A stretch of DNA of 23,831 bases. It comes from a virus. The notes under the pieces were generated by a model. It was not told where the DNA came from and made no database searches. It was given only the letters and a program-made list of their open reading frames with translations. Position numbers and translations under genes: made by a program. Location: positions 1 to 23,831 of IMG/VR virus record IMGVR_UViG_3300044644_000126. One strand, 5' to 3'. Shown here piece after piece: positions 11,675-22,286 of the stretch. Each line of letters starts with the position of its first letter. Positions within the stretch are counted from its first letter, which is position 1.

Positions 11675-11823
11675 TGACATACGGACAAATAATAGCAACA
11701 ATACAATGTTATATACACCATATGACTGATAAAGAAGTTCAGATTAACTTACCAAGAAACGTAGGTGAAATAAAAAAGATGCAACAAATGTATAATATAG
11801 CAAGTGCTTACCTTTCGCAGTAA
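11674..11823 (+). CDS. Small hypothetical protein after terL
   Basis: The 49-residue product begins M-T-Y-G-Q-I-I-A-T-I-Q-C-Y and ends with an A-Y-L-S-Q tail. The start overlaps the terminase stop (TAATG); the stop is TAA 11821-11823. It is probably helical, with no recognised domain. The coupling to terL suggests co-expression with the packaging motor. Confidence 0.58.
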   Translation: MTYGQIIATIQCYIHHMTDKEVQINLPRNVGEIKKMQQMYNIASAYLSQ

Positions 11824-11864
11824 GATAACTATTAAAATCAACGTTTATATTGACACAAAAAGTA

Positions 11865-12089
11865 ATGGAAAAAGAAGAAGATATATTTGAAAATATGGAG
11901 TTTGAACTAGCAGATACAAGATATGAAATAATATCAATGTGCAATCAAGCATTAAGTTCAGTTGAAGGATTTGATACGTATATGATTGATGAAAAAGATA
12001 CGTATAAGATTAAAGAAATAAAAAGAAAGTGTTTAGCTTTAATTGATTTGCATATTGGAATGATATACGATGAAAACTTTGATGCGTAA
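11865..12089 (+). CDS. Acidic hypothetical protein
   Basis: I place the start at ATG 11865 rather than at the in-frame TTG 11850, since nearly every other start here is ATG and the bases just upstream are A-rich. The 74-residue product is acidic (M-E-K-E-E-D-I-F-E-N-M-E-F-E-L) and helical. It has an internal near-repeat D-T-Y-M-I-D-E-K-D-T-Y-K-I-K-E, reflected in two copies of GATACGTATA at 11973 and 11997. The stop codon lies inside a 16-bp palindrome that precedes promoter 3. No function is recognised. Confidence 0.6.
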   Translation: MEKEEDIFENMEFELADTRYEIISMCNQALSSVEGFDTYMIDEKDTYKIKEIKRKCLALIDLHIGMIYDENFDA

Positions 12090-12101
12090 CTTATAAGTTA
12101 C
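12086..12101. promoter_or_regulatory. 16-bp perfect palindrome next to promoter 3
   Basis: GTAACTTATAAGTTAC reads the same on both strands. It includes the stop codon of the preceding gene and ends three bases before the GTTAAA block of promoter 3. No T-tract follows, so it is not a standard terminator; a dimeric repressor or activator site is plausible. Palindromes of this length are rare by chance even in A/T-rich DNA. Confidence 0.5.
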
Positions 12102-12104
12102 TAT

Positions 12105-12155
12105 GTTAAATAAAAGTTAAAATGTATTATATTTAAAACAAAAGAATTAGATTTG
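12105..12155 (+). promoter_or_regulatory. Promoter 3 with GTTAAA half-sites
   Basis: GTTAAA at 12105-12110 and 12116-12121 keeps the 11-bp period. The 21-bp block 12105-12125 matches that of promoter 1 at 17 of 21 positions. After 22 bases comes TAGATTTG (12148-12155), the same perfect -7 element as promoter 1. The intervening spacer is not conserved, so the two ends of the cassette seem to be what is kept. It would drive the 56-residue gene at 12173 and is followed by a strong terminator at 12367. Confidence 0.68.
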
Positions 12156-12172
12156 TATCAAATAATAAACAA

Positions 12173-12343
12173 ATGAAAACATATATGACAAAGTATTTAA
12201 TAACTTACTGGACAGAAAGAAATGATGAAGCAACAGATGTAGAATTAGAAATCTATGCTTACAATGAAATAGATGCACAAAGAAAATTCTATGATATGAA
12301 TATAGTACATAAGAAAATAGAAAGCGTAAAAGAATTGGTTTAA
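12173..12343 (+). CDS. 56-residue hypothetical with its own promoter and terminator
   Basis: It starts 17 bases after the -7 box of promoter 3 and ends TAA 12341-12343, 23 bases before a strong terminator, so it is a one-gene transcription unit between the packaging and tail modules. The product (M-K-T-Y-M-T-K-Y-L-I-T-Y-W-T-E-R) has a beta-beta-alpha look, with E-L-E-I-Y-A-Y-N-E-I-D-A-Q-R-K-F-Y. This resembles small single-domain regulators or inhibitors, but I recognise no family. Its early-type promoter in the middle of late genes makes it a candidate for a regulatory or host-directed role. Confidence 0.68.
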   Translation: MKTYMTKYLITYWTERNDEATDVELEIYAYNEIDAQRKFYDMNIVHKKIESVKELV

Positions 12344-12366
12344 ATTTAGGTTAATAATGGTTGAAG

Positions 12367-12400
12367 AAAGACTTGCAGAAATGTAGGTCTTTTTTCTTTT
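12367..12400 (+). terminator. Strong terminator before the tail module
   Basis: An 11-bp stem (12367-12377 with 12382-12392, including two G-T pairs) is capped by the stable GAAA tetraloop (12378-12381). A T-rich tail follows (through 12395, then C and more T). This is the best hairpin in the window. Confidence 0.88.
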
Positions 12401-12462
12401 TAATAGCTTTGCTATTTAGTTTAATACAATTTAGACTTTATTTTATTTTTAAATAAAAAACA
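12401..12462 (+). promoter_or_regulatory. Leader of the tail module
   Basis: It contains a short inverted repeat AATAGC (12402-12407) / GCTATT (12411-12416). It ends with a TTTTATTTTTAAATAAAAA block (12441-12459) that recurs at 22972-22990 at almost the same distance from a start codon. No TANNTTTG is present. Since a terminator stands just upstream, a late promoter is expected here; the shared block is a candidate for it or for a translation enhancer. Confidence 0.5.
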
Positions 12463-13140
12463 ATGAAGTTACAGATTACAATACCAACAAGTTTAGATGA
12501 AATAACATTAGAACAATATCAAAAGTTTTTATCTATTGCAAAAGATAATCCTGATGGTGAGTTTCTTCAACACAAGATGGTAGAAATATTTTGTGGTATA
12601 GATTTAAAGAATGCTGCTAAAATAAGTTACAAAGATGTTAATGAAATAACAACTAACTTATCAAATCTATTCAATCAAAAGTATGATTTGAAAAGAACAT
12701 TTAAATTAGGCAATACTGAATTTGGATTTATAACCAACCTTGATGAAATAACATTAGGTGAATATACTGATTTAGATAAATACATATGTGATTGGGATAA
12801 GATGCATAATGCAATGGCAGTATTATACAGACCAATTACAAAGAAGCTAAAAGACAAATATCAAATAGAAGAATACAATGGTAGTTATACTTATTGTGAT
12901 GCTATGAAGTATATGCCACTTGATGTAGCATTAGGTGCAGTGGTTTTTTTTTACAATTTAGGCAACGAATTGTTGAAGTCTACGATACACTATTTGGAGA
13001 ACAACAAGGAGTTTCAGAATATAGTAAACAATCACAATTTGGAAGTAAATGGGGTTGGTATTCATCATTCTATGCTCTTGCTCAAGGAGATGTTAGAAGA
13101 TTTGAAGATGTTTCCAGACTTCGATTATCAGTTGCATTAA
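12463..13140 (+). CDS. Tail assembly chaperone, short form
   Basis: The zero-frame product is 225 residues: M-K-L-Q-I-T-I-P-T-S-L-D-E-I-T-L-E-Q-Y-Q-K-F-L. The repeated phrase L-D-E-I-T-L-x-E-Y (residues 11-19 and about 91-99) is typical of tail-chaperone-like proteins of Bacteroidota phages. After V-F-F-Y-N-L-G-N-E-L-L-K the frame continues for another 62 residues that overlap the -1 frame described separately. It is the first gene of the tail module. By analogy with lambda gpG it would bind the tape measure during tail assembly. The identification rests on gene order, the frameshift signal and the pattern, not on a catalytic motif. Confidence 0.72.
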   Translation: MKLQITIPTSLDEITLEQYQKFLSIAKDNPDGEFLQHKMVEIFCGIDLKNAAKISYKDVNEITTNLSNLFNQKYDLKRTFKLGNTEFGFITNLDEITLGEYTDLDKYICDWDKMHNAMAVLYRPITKKLKDKYQIEEYNGSYTYCDAMKYMPLDVALGAVVFFYNLGNELLKSTIHYLENNKEFQNIVNNHNLEVNGVGIHHSMLLLKEMLEDLKMFPDFDYQLH

Positions 13141-13202
13141 CATTTTTAACATTTGAAAAAGAAAAGAACCAAATAGAAACAGAATTAATAAGAAGTAAAT
13201 AA
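12463..13202 (+). CDS. Tail assembly chaperone, -1 frameshift long form
   Basis: Reading 163 zero-frame codons to 12951 and slipping back one base gives 83 more residues, ending TAA 13200-13202; the total is 246. The -1 extension is a well-formed protein segment: I-V-E-V-Y-D-T-L-F-G-E-Q-Q-G, then F-G-S-K-W-G-W-Y-S-S-F-Y-A-L-A and D-V-R-R-F-E-D-V-S-R-L. It finishes in a charged helix. The -1 frame is open from 12924 (TGA at 12921-12923) and has no ATG, GTG or TTG codon, so it cannot easily start on its own. Its stop overlaps the ATG of the next gene (TAATG), the local norm, whereas the zero-frame stop leaves a 61-base gap. This mirrors the gpG/gpGT pair of lambda. The slip itself is inferred. 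Confidence 0.8.
12945..12951 (+). promoter_or_regulatory. Slippery site for -1 ribosomal frameshift
   Basis: The zero frame reads GTT TTT TTT TAC from 12943, in a run of nine T (12944-12952). The heptamer T-TTT-TTT at 12945-12951 fits X-XXY-YYZ, so both tRNAs re-pair perfectly after a -1 slip. A weak stem CAAC (12963-12966) / GTTG (12972-12975) lies 11 bases downstream and might help; no strong pseudoknot is evident by eye. Polymerase slippage on T9 is an alternative mechanism with the same outcome. Confidence 0.75.
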
Positions 13203-13669
13203 TGAAAGGATTTTATCAAATAACAACAGCAATAAAAGACCAACTATATAAAGATGTATTTGTTAATACAGTTTCTTCAGGTGATATATTTGAAATTGAT
13301 TTAAACAAGCAAACTATATTTCCTTTATCACATATAATTGTAAACAATGCAACATACAATGGCAACACTTGGTTATTTAATATATCAGTTCTATGTATGG
13401 ATGTTGTTGACTTTAGTAAGACTGAACAAACAGACCAGTTTTTAACAAATGATAATGAACAAGATGTTTTGCACACACAACTAATGGTTATTAATAGATT
13501 ATTAGAAGTATTAAGACGTGGAAGTTTATTTGATGATTTATATCAATTACAAGGTACACCTAATTGTGAACCATTTGTAGATAGATTTGAAAACAAGATA
13601 GCTGGTTGGACAGTTACATTTGATGTTGTAGTTGCTAATGAAATGACTGCTTGTGAAAATGAATGCTAA
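13202..13669 (+). CDS. Tail completion/terminator-like protein
   Basis: A 155-residue protein beginning M-K-G-F-Y-Q-I-T-T-A-I-K-D-Q-L. The centre I-F-P-L-S-H-I-I-V-N-N-A-T-Y and later F-V-D-R-F-E-N-K-I-A-G-W-T-V-T-F-D-V match a conserved group I know in Bacteroidota phages, located beside the chaperone. The beta-rich end and the size fit a tail-terminator or neck protein that caps the tail tube, but this role is inferred from position. The ATG overlaps the stop of the frameshift product by one base, so its translation may be coupled to frameshifting ribosomes. Confidence 0.68.
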   Translation: MKGFYQITTAIKDQLYKDVFVNTVSSGDIFEIDLNKQTIFPLSHIIVNNATYNGNTWLFNISVLCMDVVDFSKTEQTDQFLTNDNEQDVLHTQLMVINRLLEVLRRGSLFDDLYQLQGTPNCEPFVDRFENKIAGWTVTFDVVVANEMTACENEC

Positions 13670-17858: not shown

Positions 17859-18019
17859 TGATAAAGTTAATACTTGAAATGTTACAATTAGATGAACATT
17901 ACGGACAATCAGAAACAATAGAAATTGCAAAAGGCAAATATGAATTACCAGCAACATTTTCAGGTACATTAAAGCAATTTAAACGACAAATAAAAGAAAG
18001 AAAAAATGGCAGAAACTAA
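17858..18019 (+). CDS. Small protein before the tape measure
   Basis: The 53-residue product is M-I-K-L-I-L-E-M-L-Q-L-D-E-H-Y-G at its start and basic at its end (K-Q-F-K-R-Q-I-K-E-R-K-N). ATG 17858 overlaps the previous stop (TAATG) and the stop overlaps the tape measure by 14 bases, so it is locked between two tail genes. No family is recognised. Confidence 0.6.
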   Translation: MIKLILEMLQLDEHYGQSETIEIAKGKYELPATFSGTLKQFKRQIKERKNGRN

Positions 18020-19814
18020 AACTGTAAATTTAGAAGTTAATTCTAATTTAGCACAAACTGAACAAGCAGTTACTTCATTAAGAAGTGAATTAAGAAAAGC
18101 ACAAGCAGAGGTTGCTGCTATGAGTGACAAATTTGGTGCAGCATCAAAAGAAGCTATTGAAGCAGCCAAAAGAGCAGCTGATTTAAAAGACAGAATAGGT
18201 GATGCAAAAGATTTAACTGATGCATTTAATCCTGATGCAAAATTTAAAGCATTAGCTGGTGCTGCAAATATTGCTGCTGGTGCATTAGCTGGTTTTGAAG
18301 GTGCAATGGGTTTAGTTGGTGTACAGTCTGAAGATGCACAACAAGCTATTTTAAAAGTTCAATCAGCATTAGCAGTATCACAAGGTTTAGATGTATTACA
18401 ACAAATTCCTGATACATTTAGAAATATTAAAGCAGTTGCAGTTAATGCTTTTGGGGCAATTAAAGGTGCTATTGGTGCAACAGGAATAGGTTTATTAGTT
18501 GTTGCTTTAGGTGCTTTATATGCTAATTGGGATGCATTAAAAAATTTAGTTGGTGAAAGTATTCCAGCATTAAAAGAAGGTACTAAACAATTTGATAAAT
18601 TAAAAGAAGTATTTTTTGGTGTAGGTAATGCAATAGTTCAATATTTATTAACACCATTTAAATCAGTTTTAAAAATATTACAATTAGATTTTAAAGGTGC
18701 TATAAATGAAATTAAAAAAGGTTATGATGTAATTGGTAATTATGAAAAAGGTGCTGCAAAAGAAAGACAAGACCAAAATGATGCTTATGCAAAAGCAAGA
18801 TTAGAAAAACGAATTAAGGATAAAGAAAATGAAATTGCAGTAGCTAAAGCATTAGGTAATGATACTTATAATTTAGAAAAAGATAATCTACATAGAAAGC
18901 TACTTTTAAATAAAGGCAATCAAGAAGAACTTGAAAAAATAAGACAAGAAGAAAGAGTATTAGATGCTACACATAAAAAAGCATTACAGGATAAACAAAA
19001 AGCACATAATGATGAATTAAAAAAGAAACGTGAAGAAGCATTAGCAGAAGAAAAAAAGAAAAGAGAAGAAGCTGAAAAACAACGTTCTGATGCTGAAAAT
19101 GCAAAAGGTAGAGCAGCAGAAGAAGAATATGAGAAATCAAAACAAAAACATTCAGATGATTTAGAAGAAGAACTAAATAATATGGTTGAGTTTGATGAAA
19201 GGGAAGCTGAAAATGAAAAGAAAAGAAAAGAAAAACAATTAGAGGCAGAAACATTATTTGAACAACAAAAAAATGATGTAATTGCTAAATCAAAAGAAAA
19301 TTTATCAAATATAATATCTGGATTAGAAGCAACAGGAATAGCAAAATCAAAAGCTGGTCAAGCTATTTCAAAAGCTATTGCATTAACACAAATAGGAATT
19401 GATAGTGCAGTTGCAATTTCTAAAGCATCAACATTAGCAAATGCTGAAGGTGTTGCAGCACAATTAGCTTTTCCAACAGTACCTGGAATTGGAACAATAG
19501 CAAGAATAACATCTTATGCTTCTACTGCTTTATCAGTTGCAGCAAATATAGTAAGGGCAAAACAATTACTTTCAAGTGGTGGTAGTGCAAGTGGTTCATC
19601 AAATAGTGGTGGTAGAGGTTCAGCACCAAGTGGTGGTGGTGGTGGTATGTCTCCACAATTTAATGTAGTTGGAAATAGTGGTGTTAATCAATTAGCAGAA
19701 ACAATGCAAGGAAGGTCAGCACAAGCACCAATACAAGCATATGTTGTAGCAAATGATGTAACAACAGCACAAGGTTTAAATAGAAACATAGTAACCAATG
19801 CAAGTTTAGGATAA
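18006..19814 (+). CDS. Tail tape measure protein
   Basis: A 602-residue protein with the composition of a tape measure. The first 70 residues are coiled-coil (L-A-Q-T-E-Q-A-V-T-S-L-R-S-E-L-R-K-A). Ala/Gly-rich hydrophobic segments lie near 83-105 and 143-172 (G-A-I-G-A-T-G-I-G-L-L-V-V-A-L-G-A-L-Y). A very long charged coiled coil spans about 250-440 (E-E-K-K-K-R-E-E-A-E-K-Q-R). A second hydrophobic region lies near 450-520, then a Gly/Ser-rich linker near 524-550. It sets tail length (about 90 nm by the usual rule) and may enter the host envelope on DNA delivery. At 602 aa it is on the short side. Alternative hairpins follow in the downstream gap. Confidence 0.85.
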   Translation: MAETKTVNLEVNSNLAQTEQAVTSLRSELRKAQAEVAAMSDKFGAASKEAIEAAKRAADLKDRIGDAKDLTDAFNPDAKFKALAGAANIAAGALAGFEGAMGLVGVQSEDAQQAILKVQSALAVSQGLDVLQQIPDTFRNIKAVAVNAFGAIKGAIGATGIGLLVVALGALYANWDALKNLVGESIPALKEGTKQFDKLKEVFFGVGNAIVQYLLTPFKSVLKILQLDFKGAINEIKKGYDVIGNYEKGAAKERQDQNDAYAKARLEKRIKDKENEIAVAKALGNDTYNLEKDNLHRKLLLNKGNQEELEKIRQEERVLDATHKKALQDKQKAHNDELKKKREEALAEEKKKREEAEKQRSDAENAKGRAAEEEYEKSKQKHSDDLEEELNNMVEFDEREAENEKKRKEKQLEAETLFEQQKNDVIAKSKENLSNIISGLEATGIAKSKAGQAISKAIALTQIGIDSAVAISKASTLANAEGVAAQLAFPTVPGIGTIARITSYASTALSVAANIVRAKQLLSSGGSASGSSNSGGRGSAPSGGGGGMSPQFNVVGNSGVNQLAETMQGRSAQAPIQAYVVANDVTTAQGLNRNIVTNASLG

Positions 19815-19817
19815 TGT

Positions 19818-19848
19818 TAGTTAAAAGTATCATTAACTATGTTTTTTT
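19818..19848 (+). terminator. Weak terminator hairpin after tape measure
   Basis: TAGTTAA (19818-19824) and TTAACTA (19833-19839) form a 7-bp stem with an 8-base loop. T and G follow, then seven T (19842-19848). The stem is A/T-rich and only moderately stable. Its right half and loop are shared with the alternative inverted repeat at 19825-19863. Confidence 0.6.
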
Positions 19849-19863
19849 GACTTAATGATACTT
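19825..19863. repeat. 12-bp perfect inverted repeat overlapping the terminator
   Basis: AAGTATCATTAA (19825-19836) and TTAATGATACTT (19852-19863) are exact reverse complements around a 15-base loop that contains the T-tract. Forming this longer stem would break the 19818-19839 hairpin, as in attenuators. It could instead be a protein-binding site. Confidence 0.6.
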
Positions 19864-19875
19864 ATTTAAAACAAA

Positions 19876-19908
19876 ATATAAATAATTTAATTTTTAAAAA
19901 AAAGTACA
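19876..19908 (+). promoter_or_regulatory. Head-module leader A (shared block at -33)
   Basis: ATATAAATAATTTAA at 19876-19890 begins exactly 33 bases before the protease ATG and recurs at 20710-20724, exactly 33 bases before the scaffold-like ATG. Poly-A and GTA follow in both. It may be a late promoter or a strong translation leader. Confidence 0.5.
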
Positions 19909-20496
19909 ATGAAGAAATTAGAAACTATTTATTTAGATATAGACGAAGAAAATATTCAAGATGGAATTGATGCTATTAGTTTGGTAAAATTTCCAGCTAT
20001 TGAAGAAAATTGGGTTGCATTAAATGAACACAAAGTAGAATTAAAAACTATTGATGAAGATAAAAGAATAGTTATAGGTTTAGCTTTAATACCAGAAAAA
20101 GATATTTATAGAAGAAATGGTGATTATGAATATAACATTCGTTTCTCAAAAGAAACAGTTAGAAAAGCATCTGAATTATATTTAAAGAAACTAAAAATAC
20201 ATAATTCAACATTAGAACACGACAAAAAAACAGAAGGTGTTTATACAATAGAAAGTTGGATTGTTGAAGATGTTAAACGTGATAAGTCTGCTATTTACAA
20301 TTTAAATGCAACAGAAGGAAGTTGGGTTGTAGTTCAAAGAATAGACAATGATGAAGTTTGGAATGATGTTAAAGAAGGTAAATATCAAGGTTATTCTATT
20401 GAAGGATATTTTTCTGAAAAAGCAGAATTAAATTTACAAGAAAGTAAAGAGCAAGAATTGATTGAAAAAATAAAACAAATACTAATTAATGTTTAA
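19909..20496 (+). CDS. XkdF-like putative prohead protease
   Basis: A 195-residue protein of the XkdF group, regarded as the phage capsid-maturation serine protease of this phage type. I-S-L-V-K-F-P-A-I-E-E-N-W opens the domain. I-Y-R-R-N-G-D-Y-E-Y-N-I-R-F-S and L-K-I-H98-N-S-T-L-E-H104-D-K-K-T-E-G follow, then E-S-W-I-V-E. Near the end come G-S-W-V-V, V-K-E-G-K-Y-Q and G-Y-S163-I-E-G. His104 and Ser116 or Ser163 are candidate catalytic residues, by analogy with other prohead proteases. It opens the head module, before the scaffold-like and capsid genes, as expected. Activity is not shown by sequence alone. Confidence 0.8.
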   Translation: MKKLETIYLDIDEENIQDGIDAISLVKFPAIEENWVALNEHKVELKTIDEDKRIVIGLALIPEKDIYRRNGDYEYNIRFSKETVRKASELYLKKLKIHNSTLEHDKKTEGVYTIESWIVEDVKRDKSAIYNLNATEGSWVVVQRIDNDEVWNDVKEGKYQGYSIEGYFSEKAELNLQESKEQELIEKIKQILINV

Positions 20497-20506
20497 CATA
20501 TTTAAA

Positions 20507-20695
20507 ATGGGAAAGAATAAATACACAAGTCCAAAAGACGCTAAAAGAGGTTGTTTATGTGATGATAGCACATATTCAGCAGAATGTTGCAAAGGTGAAT
20601 TAATCAATCAAGGTATTGGTTCAACAGTTGCACAAGGCACATCAACAGTAACACAGGTTGATGGAGTAAGAACAATGGTTAGAACAAATGGCTAA
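20507..20695 (+). CDS. Small Cys-motif phage protein
   Basis: M-G-K-N-K-Y-T-S-P-K-D-A-K-R-G-C-L-C-D-D opens a 62-residue protein with C-L-C and E-C-C-K-G motifs, then I-N-Q-G-I-G. The pattern is one I know from Bacteroidota phages next to the protease, with no assigned function; four close Cys suggest metal binding or disulfides. An in-frame ATG at 20489 would add six residues and overlap the protease stop; I prefer 20507 because related proteins start M-G-x-N-K-Y. It ends in Thr/Val/Gly-rich sequence that may be extended. Confidence 0.68.
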   Translation: MGKNKYTSPKDAKRGCLCDDSTYSAECCKGELINQGIGSTVAQGTSTVTQVDGVRTMVRTNG

Positions 20696-20709
20696 CCAAT
20701 TTATAACAA

Positions 20710-20742
20710 ATATAAATAATTTAAATTTTTAATAAAAAAAGT
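20710..20742 (+). promoter_or_regulatory. Head-module leader B (shared block at -33)
   Basis: This is the second copy of ATATAAATAATTTAA (20710-20724), 33 bases from the scaffold-like ATG, followed by an A-rich tail and GT. No TANNTTTG or terminator is near, so it would act inside the head operon to raise expression of the scaffold and capsid genes. Confidence 0.5.
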
Positions 20743-21300
20743 ATGAACGTAGTAAATCAAATCAAAGAACTTTTGGGTATGGAAGTAAAACTTGCTCAAA
20801 TGAAACTAATGGATGGTGTTACTGTTATTGAAGCAGAAACATTTGAACCAGAAATGGCAATCTTTATTGTTAATGAAGAAGAAAGAGTACCAATGCCAGT
20901 TGGTGAATATATGTTAGAAGATGGTAATGTTTTGAAAGTAGAAGTAGAAGGTGTTATTGCATCTATTGAAATGCCAGAAGAAGAAGCACCTGAAGTTGAA
21001 GAAGAAGTAGAAACTACTAAAAAAGAAGAAGAAATGGCAACTGAAGTAGCTGCACCAAAAAGAGTAGTTGAAAGTGTAACTAAAGAAATGTTCTTTTCTG
21101 AAATTGAAAAATTAAGAGCAGAAATTGCTGAATTGAAATTATCAAAAACAGAAGTAGTTGAAGCAGTTGAATTGTCAAATGATAACATTGAAGTTTTATC
21201 ACACAATCCAGAAGCTACTAATGAAGTTAAAATGAATTTATATTCTAAAAAAAGACAAGCTACAACATTTGATGTAGTATTGAGTAAATTAAACAAATAA
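20743..21300 (+). CDS. Putative scaffold protein
   Basis: A 185-residue acidic protein. The first 85 residues are a beta-rich domain (V-K-L-A-Q-M-K-L-M-D-G-V-T-V-I-E-A and M-P-V-G-E-Y-M-L-E-D-G). A Glu-rich linker follows (E-E-E-A-P-E-V-E-E-E-V-E), then a helical coiled coil (E-I-E-K-L-R-A-E-I-A-E-L). Acidic linkers and C-terminal helices are typical of phage scaffolds. The position between protease and major capsid protein is the standard scaffold slot. The basic end (K-K-R-Q-A-T-T-F-D-V-V) could bind capsid subunits. Scaffold is the best reading, although no specific family motif is visible. Confidence 0.7.
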   Translation: MNVVNQIKELLGMEVKLAQMKLMDGVTVIEAETFEPEMAIFIVNEEERVPMPVGEYMLEDGNVLKVEVEGVIASIEMPEEEAPEVEEEVETTKKEEEMATEVAAPKRVVESVTKEMFFSEIEKLRAEIAELKLSKTEVVEAVELSNDNIEVLSHNPEATNEVKMNLYSKKRQATTFDVVLSKLNK

Positions 21301-21323
21301 TAAAAATAAAAATTAAATAAAAA

Positions 21324-22286
21324 ATGGCTACAACAACAAGTATTACAACTACCTATGCTGGTGAGTTTGCTGGAAAATACATATCAGCAGCATTATTAAG
21401 TGCTTCTACTATCGAAAATGGTGGTATTGAAGTAAAACCAAATGTAAAATACAAAGAAGTAATTAAGAAAATTGCTACTGATGCAATCGTAAAAGATGCA
21501 ACTTGTGATTTTGATGCTACTTCAACTGTAACTTTAACAGAACAAATTTTACAACCAGAAGAATTTCAAGTAAACCTACAACTTTGTAAGAAAGATTTCC
21601 GTTCAGATTGGGAAGCCGTTCAAATGGGATATTCTGCATTCGATAGTTTACCACCTTCATTTGCTGATTTCTTAATTGCTCACGTAGCTGCTAAAGTTGC
21701 ACAAAAAACAGAACAAAACATTTGGGCTGGTGTAACTGCTAATGCTGGAGAATTTAACGGATTTACAAGATTGTTAACTTTAGATGCTGGTTTACCAACT
21801 GCTCAAGAAATTGCTGCTGATGGAACTAAAATTACTGCTGCTGCAACAGTTATCGGTGAATTAGGGAGAATAGTTGATGCTATTCCAGCTGCATTATACG
21901 GAAAAGAAGATTTGTACTTGTACGTTTCTCAAGCAACAGCTAGAGCTTATGTAAGAGCCTTGGGCGGTTTTGGAGCATCAGGTTTAGGTGCTAATGGTAC
22001 TAATGCAATGGGAACACAATGGTTTAACAATGGTTCACTTTCATTTGATGGAATTAAAATATTTGTTGCTGAAGGTTTAGCTCCAACAGTTGCTATTGCT
22101 GCTCAAAAATCTAACTTATACTTTGGAACTGGTTTATTGTCAGACAACCAAGAAGTTAAATTAATTGATATGTCTGACCTTGATGGTTCACAAAACGTTA
22201 GAGTAGTAATGAGATTTACTGCTGGTGTACAATACGGAATTGTAAGTGATATTACTACATATGGTATTACTAACGCTGCTAACTAA
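21324..22286 (+). CDS. Major capsid protein
   Basis: A 320-residue protein, probably of the HK97 fold. The Ala/Thr-rich N-terminus (M-A-T-T-T-S-I-T-T-T-Y-A-G-E-F) leads to V-K-Y-K-E-V-I-K-K-I and Q-P-E-E-F-Q-V-N-L-Q-L-C-K-K-D-F. Y-L-Y-V-S-Q-A-T-A-R-A-Y and the end (V-R-V-V-M-R-F-T-A-G-V-Q-Y-G-I-V-S-D-I) follow the order of Bacteroidota phage capsid proteins. Codon use shifts towards GCT, GGT and TTC more than in the early genes, as expected for an abundant protein. It follows the scaffold-like gene by 23 bases and is closed by a terminator hairpin. Confidence 0.86.
   Translation: MATTTSITTTYAGEFAGKYISAALLSASTIENGGIEVKPNVKYKEVIKKIATDAIVKDATCDFDATSTVTLTEQILQPEEFQVNLQLCKKDFRSDWEAVQMGYSAFDSLPPSFADFLIAHVAAKVAQKTEQNIWAGVTANAGEFNGFTRLLTLDAGLPTAQEIAADGTKITAAATVIGELGRIVDAIPAALYGKEDLYLYVSQATARAYVRALGGFGASGLGANGTNAMGTQWFNNGSLSFDGIKIFVAEGLAPTVAIAAQKSNLYFGTGLLSDNQEVKLIDMSDLDGSQNVRVVMRFTAGVQYGIVSDITTYGITNAAN

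Follow-up and report, generated by a model that had tools for sequence, protein, structure and literature searches.

How can a protein domain be made from a reading frame that holds no start codon? This question is raised by the gene at position 12463 of the window, i.e., the 23,831-nt stretch of viral DNA analyzed here, which is the entire IMG/VR record IMGVR_UViG_3300044644_000126. Frameshifted tail chaperones are a textbook example of programmed ribosomal frameshifting, and a preliminary description of the locus had proposed such a case, with ribosomes slipping at a T7 heptamer in a tail chaperone gene. Our analysis favors another slipping machine. With a probability of about two in three, we propose that in a large and diverse group of Bacteroidota phages, slippage of RNA polymerase at a strictly kept run of nine Ts (T9) fixes the ratio between two tail-assembly proteins, which share their N-terminal domain and probably play a chaperone role like that of lambda G/GT.

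Arrangement of the Locus

The zero-frame gene (12463..13140, + strand), which appears in the list of open reading frames and is backed by homologues and by a match to the PHROG family phrog_32199 (E 3e-21), encodes a 225-aa product. This consists of an N-terminal domain (residues 1-163, up to the Phe-Phe of the T run) and a 62-aa zero-frame tail (12952..13137, + strand). The -1 frame of the same strand is open from stop to stop over 12924..13202; it opens right after the TGA at 12921-12923, closes at the TAA at 13200-13202 and contains no ATG, GTG or TTG. Its part behind the run (12951..13199, + strand) encodes an 83-aa C-terminal domain, supported by homologues, with the motif F-G-x-K-W-G-W-Y, and residues W34, W36, Y37 and L66 are invariant in the alignment of these homologues. 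Joined to the N domain it gives a product of 163 + 83 = 246 aa, 21 aa above the 225-aa form, and its stop overlaps the start of the next gene in a TAATG junction (13200-13204). The frame boundaries, the junction and the 21 aa of extra length are exactly those of the preliminary description. The T_TTT_TTT heptamer that it had placed where the frames meet is also present (12945-12951), in phase within GTT TTT TTT TAC and inside a full run of nine Ts (12944..12952, + strand), which is the putative slippage site. No other run of nine T or A occurs in the window on its two strands, where shuffles would predict 12.65 such runs, and they are scarce elsewhere in these phages (15 vs. approximately 80 expected in 442 kb).

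When the zero-frame codons of the window were resampled among synonyms, not one of 2000 draws left the -1 frame open across the overlap, so that the open frame is not a product of chance; the same resampling across 47 relatives gave a median fraction open of 0.001.

Relatives and Their Frame Relation

The -1 peptide, the N domain and the profiles of both were used as queries and retrieved several hundred viral contigs together with contigs from bacterial genomes. The 83-residue -1 product, which had been put forward as a query at the outset, thereby recovered phage homologues with the same overlapping layout. Profile searches found both domains in 330 loci, and in all 330 the C-terminal domain lay in the -1 frame relative to the N domain. 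The same relation held in 74 of 74 further loci, and the two domains shared one frame in none of the 404. All these loci were found by protein patterns, independently of the T run. The first count had demanded a run of at least 6 Ts, and its repetition without this filter had the same outcome. Stop codons in the -1 frame of close relatives had been named as an argument against its expression; the frame is open through the run in all 303 distinct relatives. The length of the zero-frame tail ranges from 7 to 73 aa across the relatives and from 16 to 25 aa in the group of the Nonlabens phages.

The isolated Nonlabens phages P12024L (genes 40/41) and P12024S (genes 38/39) show the same arrangement. 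They share with the window a homologous N domain (30%), the -1 domain, T9 and the same neighbors, whereas their zero-frame tail has only 25 codons vs. the 62 aa of the window. Both pairs are annotated as two separate hypothetical genes. The 55-aa gene P12024L_41 (JQ823123.1 24473-24640) covers only part of the -1 domain, its call starting at an internal ATG, and standard annotation thus missed the domain as had been anticipated. The PHROG family phrog_38404, with 55 positions, is matched best (E 6e-44) by a member of our -1 alignment and appears to be built on this shortened call.

This annotation agrees with an alternative in which the -1 domain is a separate protein, made from an internal or non-standard start codon or by re-initiation. 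We consider it very improbable, as the -1 frame of the window lacks the three start codons, only 15 of 303 relatives offer an ATG before or in the first 20 codons, and conservation begins right at the run. In addition, eight predicted viral proteins of 226-267 aa are common to the fold searches of both domains. Their presence in both searches is what one would expect were the joined protein encoded in a single frame by some phages.

A prophage in a 3.9-Mb contig (L247/L254) carries a run of T9 or longer and the -1 relation; no viral relatives were found with queries taken from L247 and L252. The matches L253 and L256 proved to be false, and no such gene was found at locus L249. A distant homologue of the -1 domain (L340; G1376:C11:24658-24885, minus strand) contains one in-frame TAG, which may be read either as decay of a prophage or as stop recoding. 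One Winogradskyella bin holds two different copies of the gene (L245 and L246, on G002 contigs C58 and C107) and therefore two related prophages or phages.

Selection on Both Frames

Substitutions were counted per site among 44 close relatives, in which T9 itself is unchanged. Upstream of the run, the changes at the first, second and third zero-frame codon positions were 0.70/0.57/4.26, over the overlap they were 0.54/1.03/1.48, and past the zero-frame stop they were 1.05/2.42/0.89, the rhythm of the -1 frame. On entering the overlap, the second position (the third in the -1 frame) thus rises from 0.57 to 1.03 and the third falls from 4.26 to 1.48. This substitution pattern indicates that both frames are under selection over the overlap and that the zero-frame tail is coding in both. 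Over long distances the tail is less constrained, judging from its widely varying length.

Conservation of the Run Length

Among the 303 distinct sequences, 270 have a run of nine Ts, 31 of ten and 2 of 12, and none falls below nine. The preliminary description had warned that a corrected read with eight or ten Ts would turn the site into an ordinary sequencing error, a single wrong base in the run splitting one gene, or the gene might be a decayed one. Homopolymers are indeed error-prone, and one relative (L059, near 3001), which has the look of a fused gene, carries T10 together with another break upstream, in the N domain, probably through an assembly error. However, T9 or longer and the -1 relation are found in every locus, including the isolates P12024L and P12024S and the prophage in the 3.9-Mb contig, and both frames are under selection; this conservation refutes error or decay, which we give practically no weight. 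Homopolymer runs also often serve phase variation, and the site might be a contingency locus, where replication slippage would alter the run and switch the long form on or off between genomes. Yet not one of the 404 loci has the two domains in the same frame, and the longer runs come from codon content with the frame relation unchanged, which makes switching of this kind scarcely credible.

The placement of the Ts around the core heptamer was examined next to the run length. Counted as Ts upstream and downstream of the core, the flanks were 1,1 in 239 sequences, 1,2 in 23 and 2,0 in 22, with the rarer types 0,2 in nine, 2,1 in eight and 1,4 in two. The first set of 146 distinct sequences has N-TT TTT TTT T-NN throughout, a pattern that cannot tell ribosome from polymerase. 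The second family, reached via the -1 peptide of L248, can do so through its differing T placement: GTT TTT TTT TCG, TTT TTT TTT followed by GTG, CTG, ATC or GCG, and GGT TTT TTT TTG. Where the codon behind the core starts with a base other than T, the codon before the core is TTT; where the codon before the core has another middle base (GGT, GAT, AGT, GCT, ACT, TAT), the first codon after the core begins with TT. Nature thus offers three placements of the run, GTT TTT TTT TAC, TTT TTT TTT GTG and GGT TTT TTT TTG.

Shuffling one flank among 134 representatives gave on average 16.5 runs shorter than nine, and none of 20,000 shuffles was free of short runs. On the tree we counted 5 changes between T and non-T downstream and 6 upstream, compensated on the opposite side. 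Independent pairs on supported branches agreed in 3 of 3 and 4.5 of 5 cases, each single sign test staying below significance because the pairs are few; the compensated flank changes number approximately 8-11. We take this compensation as strong but not overwhelming evidence for selection on run length. The downstream flank encodes Y, S, W, F, C or L where it carries a T and V, L, I, A or G where it does not; the flanking residues are otherwise free, and therefore the Ts are not due to amino-acid constraint. Moreover, the last Phe codon is never TTC, although TTC makes up about 1/4 of the upstream Phe codons (log10 P = -7.3 across 47 representatives, a naive estimate).

Slippage by RNA Polymerase or Ribosome

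In living cells, runs of nine A or T make bacterial RNA polymerase slip (PMC5009743; PMC1088944), and many bacterial genomes avoid such runs at length nine, while IS elements use them (PMC1088944). Programmed transcriptional slippage would be recognized by runs of this kind, and we found at least nine Ts in 303 of 303 relatives, in three codon phases. In the proposed mechanism, RNA polymerase would stutter on T9. Ordinary U9 transcripts would yield the 225-aa form, whereas one extra U (U10), or U7, would lead to reading in the -1 frame past the run; U10 transcripts would give the 246-aa form carrying the 83-aa W-G-W-Y domain, and on U8 transcripts translation would end after about two codons. 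The +1 frame is shut within 3 codons in 87% of cases vs. 39% in the background, a difference that the codons used in the other two frames partly impose.

Ribosomes could reach the same 246-aa product by the lambda G-GT route, with two Phe-tRNAs slipping back together at U_UUU_UUU into the -1 frame. The in-phase heptamer is always there, many phages are known to use such frameshifting in their tail chaperones (PMC5009743), and U_UU.U_UU.U is shifty in E. coli (PMC4066793). Ribosomal slippage gives no reason, however, to expect a minimum of nine Ts whose flanks can stand in for each other. The in-phase T_TTT_TTT of all 303 sequences is an unavoidable part of T9, and selection on the heptamer alone, with other shifty heptamers tolerated, is at odds with the floor of nine, the compensating flanks and the missing TTC. 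Nor does ribosomal slippage predict that U_UUU_UUC is missing, as it counts among the shifty heptamers of E. coli together with U_UUU_UUU, the tetramer U_UU.C standing above U_UU.U (PMC4066793). Other tail chaperones vary their slippery motif (PMC10885494), whereas here it is all T in 303 sequences. A downstream stem-loop, which is a frequent though not indispensable stimulator of such frameshifting, was considered and rejected: among 48 representatives no conserved RNA structure was found there by folding without pseudoknots (z near 0, with means from -0.02 to -0.23, and 0 pairs in RNAalifold). Taken as the main source of the long product, ribosomal slippage is therefore possible but unlikely.

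The run-length conservation with flank compensation, the lack of TTC and the lack of conserved RNA structure together point to transcriptional slippage. The heptamer of the preliminary description was correctly seen, but the total run of at least nine Ts, and not the heptamer alone, is selected, which fits RNA polymerase better. Since every T9 holds an in-phase U_UUU_UUU, ribosomal slippage may add to the product or even dominate it. E. coli RNA polymerase favors T runs, inserts, and slips from T7-T8 on at 5-10% (PMC6260861), so that a hard floor at nine would need a different threshold or efficiency in Bacteroidota. In one report (PMC6847099), Bacteroidota mRNAs are described as lacking Shine-Dalgarno sequences; an upstream Shine-Dalgarno stimulator would be unusual in these hosts, which could, speculatively, favor slippage by the polymerase. 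In the window, a 9-bp hairpin (12917-12937) is separated from the downstream T9 by 6 bases, a spacing at which a hairpin in the nascent RNA could make contact with the polymerase. The hairpin was rejected as a stimulator, not being conserved in relatives (mean z +0.12 to +0.27).

Thermus dnaX, Shigella mxiE/spa13 and IS elements (Baranov 2005; Atkins 2016) similarly have about nine A or T within a gene and two products, and such runs are avoided elsewhere. Here, by contrast, a phage tail gene is concerned, and its T run is followed by an extra domain in the -1 frame. In mainly open-access literature we found no prior report of transcriptional slippage in phage tail genes or tail chaperones; frameshifted tail chaperones and transcriptional slippage are each known, and their combination and the clade-wide T9 rule were not found reported there. 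If the proposed mechanism is true, it does by transcription what lambda G/GT does by ribosomal frameshifting, and evolution would conserve the outcome and not the mechanism, as with dnaX, which uses the ribosome in E. coli and the polymerase in Thermus. Many phage genomes would then carry a mis-annotated gene pair with the second domain dropped or truncated, and predictors that seek heptamers and RNA structure would assume the wrong process.

Tail Module and Probable Function

The next gene (13202..13669, + strand; 155 aa) matches phrog_30964 and is the neighbor in the prophage as well, with 44% identity over 102 aa. The probable tape measure protein of the same module (18006..19814, + strand; phrog_32985) is encoded 4.8 kb after the gene at 12463, with four genes between them, and in the prophage, the protein of that family hits three PHROGs for tail-length tape measures (E 3e-7 to 4e-5). 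In the prophage L247/L254 the order is terminase, our gene, 149 aa, 169 aa, 341 aa, 776 aa, tape measure, protease and capsid, the same as in the window. Among 45 N domains, 12 gave a match to phrog_166, 'tail protein', the best with E 3e-5. That the gene at 12463 is a tail gene with two products is well supported by the tape-measure homologue in a syntenic module and by these tail-protein profile matches, and the start-less -1 frame behind an all-T site in a Bacteroidota tail module is supported as originally described.

AF2 models gave pLDDT 80.5 for the zero-frame protein, with a confident mixed alpha/beta fold of the N domain, and 73.9 for the helical -1 domain, best over residues 40-83. 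The N domain had no fold match in the PDB. Its BFVD matches were mostly uncharacterized phage proteins; the weak ones included tail assembly chaperones (E 0.34), and no usable Pfam or NCBIfam match was found for the gene. The chaperone function named in the preliminary description stands in part: the tail-module gene, the G/GT-like layout and the tail-protein profile matches are there, and the role itself is suggested by synteny and by weak resemblances in profile or fold. Our best reading, plausible rather than proven, is a G/GT-like chaperone pair. The gene might instead encode two products of another morphogenesis factor, acting beside the terminase or in the neck, since it directly follows the terminase, lies well before the tape measure and lacks Pfam, NCBIfam and PDB matches. 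The phrog_166 matches, the weak chaperone folds and a layout that mimics G/GT speak against such a factor, and we find it doubtful.

As in lambda gpG/gpGT and other frameshifted tail chaperones (Xu, Hendrix and Duda 2004), an abundant short product would be accompanied by a longer one, and the C-terminal domain lies in the -1 frame, overlapping the zero-frame tail at the end of the first gene, in a tail module. Unlike them, our gene shows no detectable sequence relationship in the libraries searched, has an all-T run with a floor of nine and not the XXXYYYZ heptamer of lambda, stands 4.8 kb before the tape measure, and probably depends on slippage of RNA polymerase and not of the ribosome. The pair probably works as in lambda, with the N domain acting on the tape measure and the C-terminal domain on the tail-tube subunits, in a set ratio.

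No portal gene was recognized in the window. The order in 18006-22286 is unusual, as the tape measure precedes an XkdF-type protease (PF14550, 19909-20496) and a capsid candidate. Between the terminase and the gene at 12463 there are approximately 790 bases without a clear gene (11675-12462), while in Nonlabens phage P12024L the terminase and the N-domain gene overlap by one base. A terminator-like hairpin with a T tail is located at 12363-12406.
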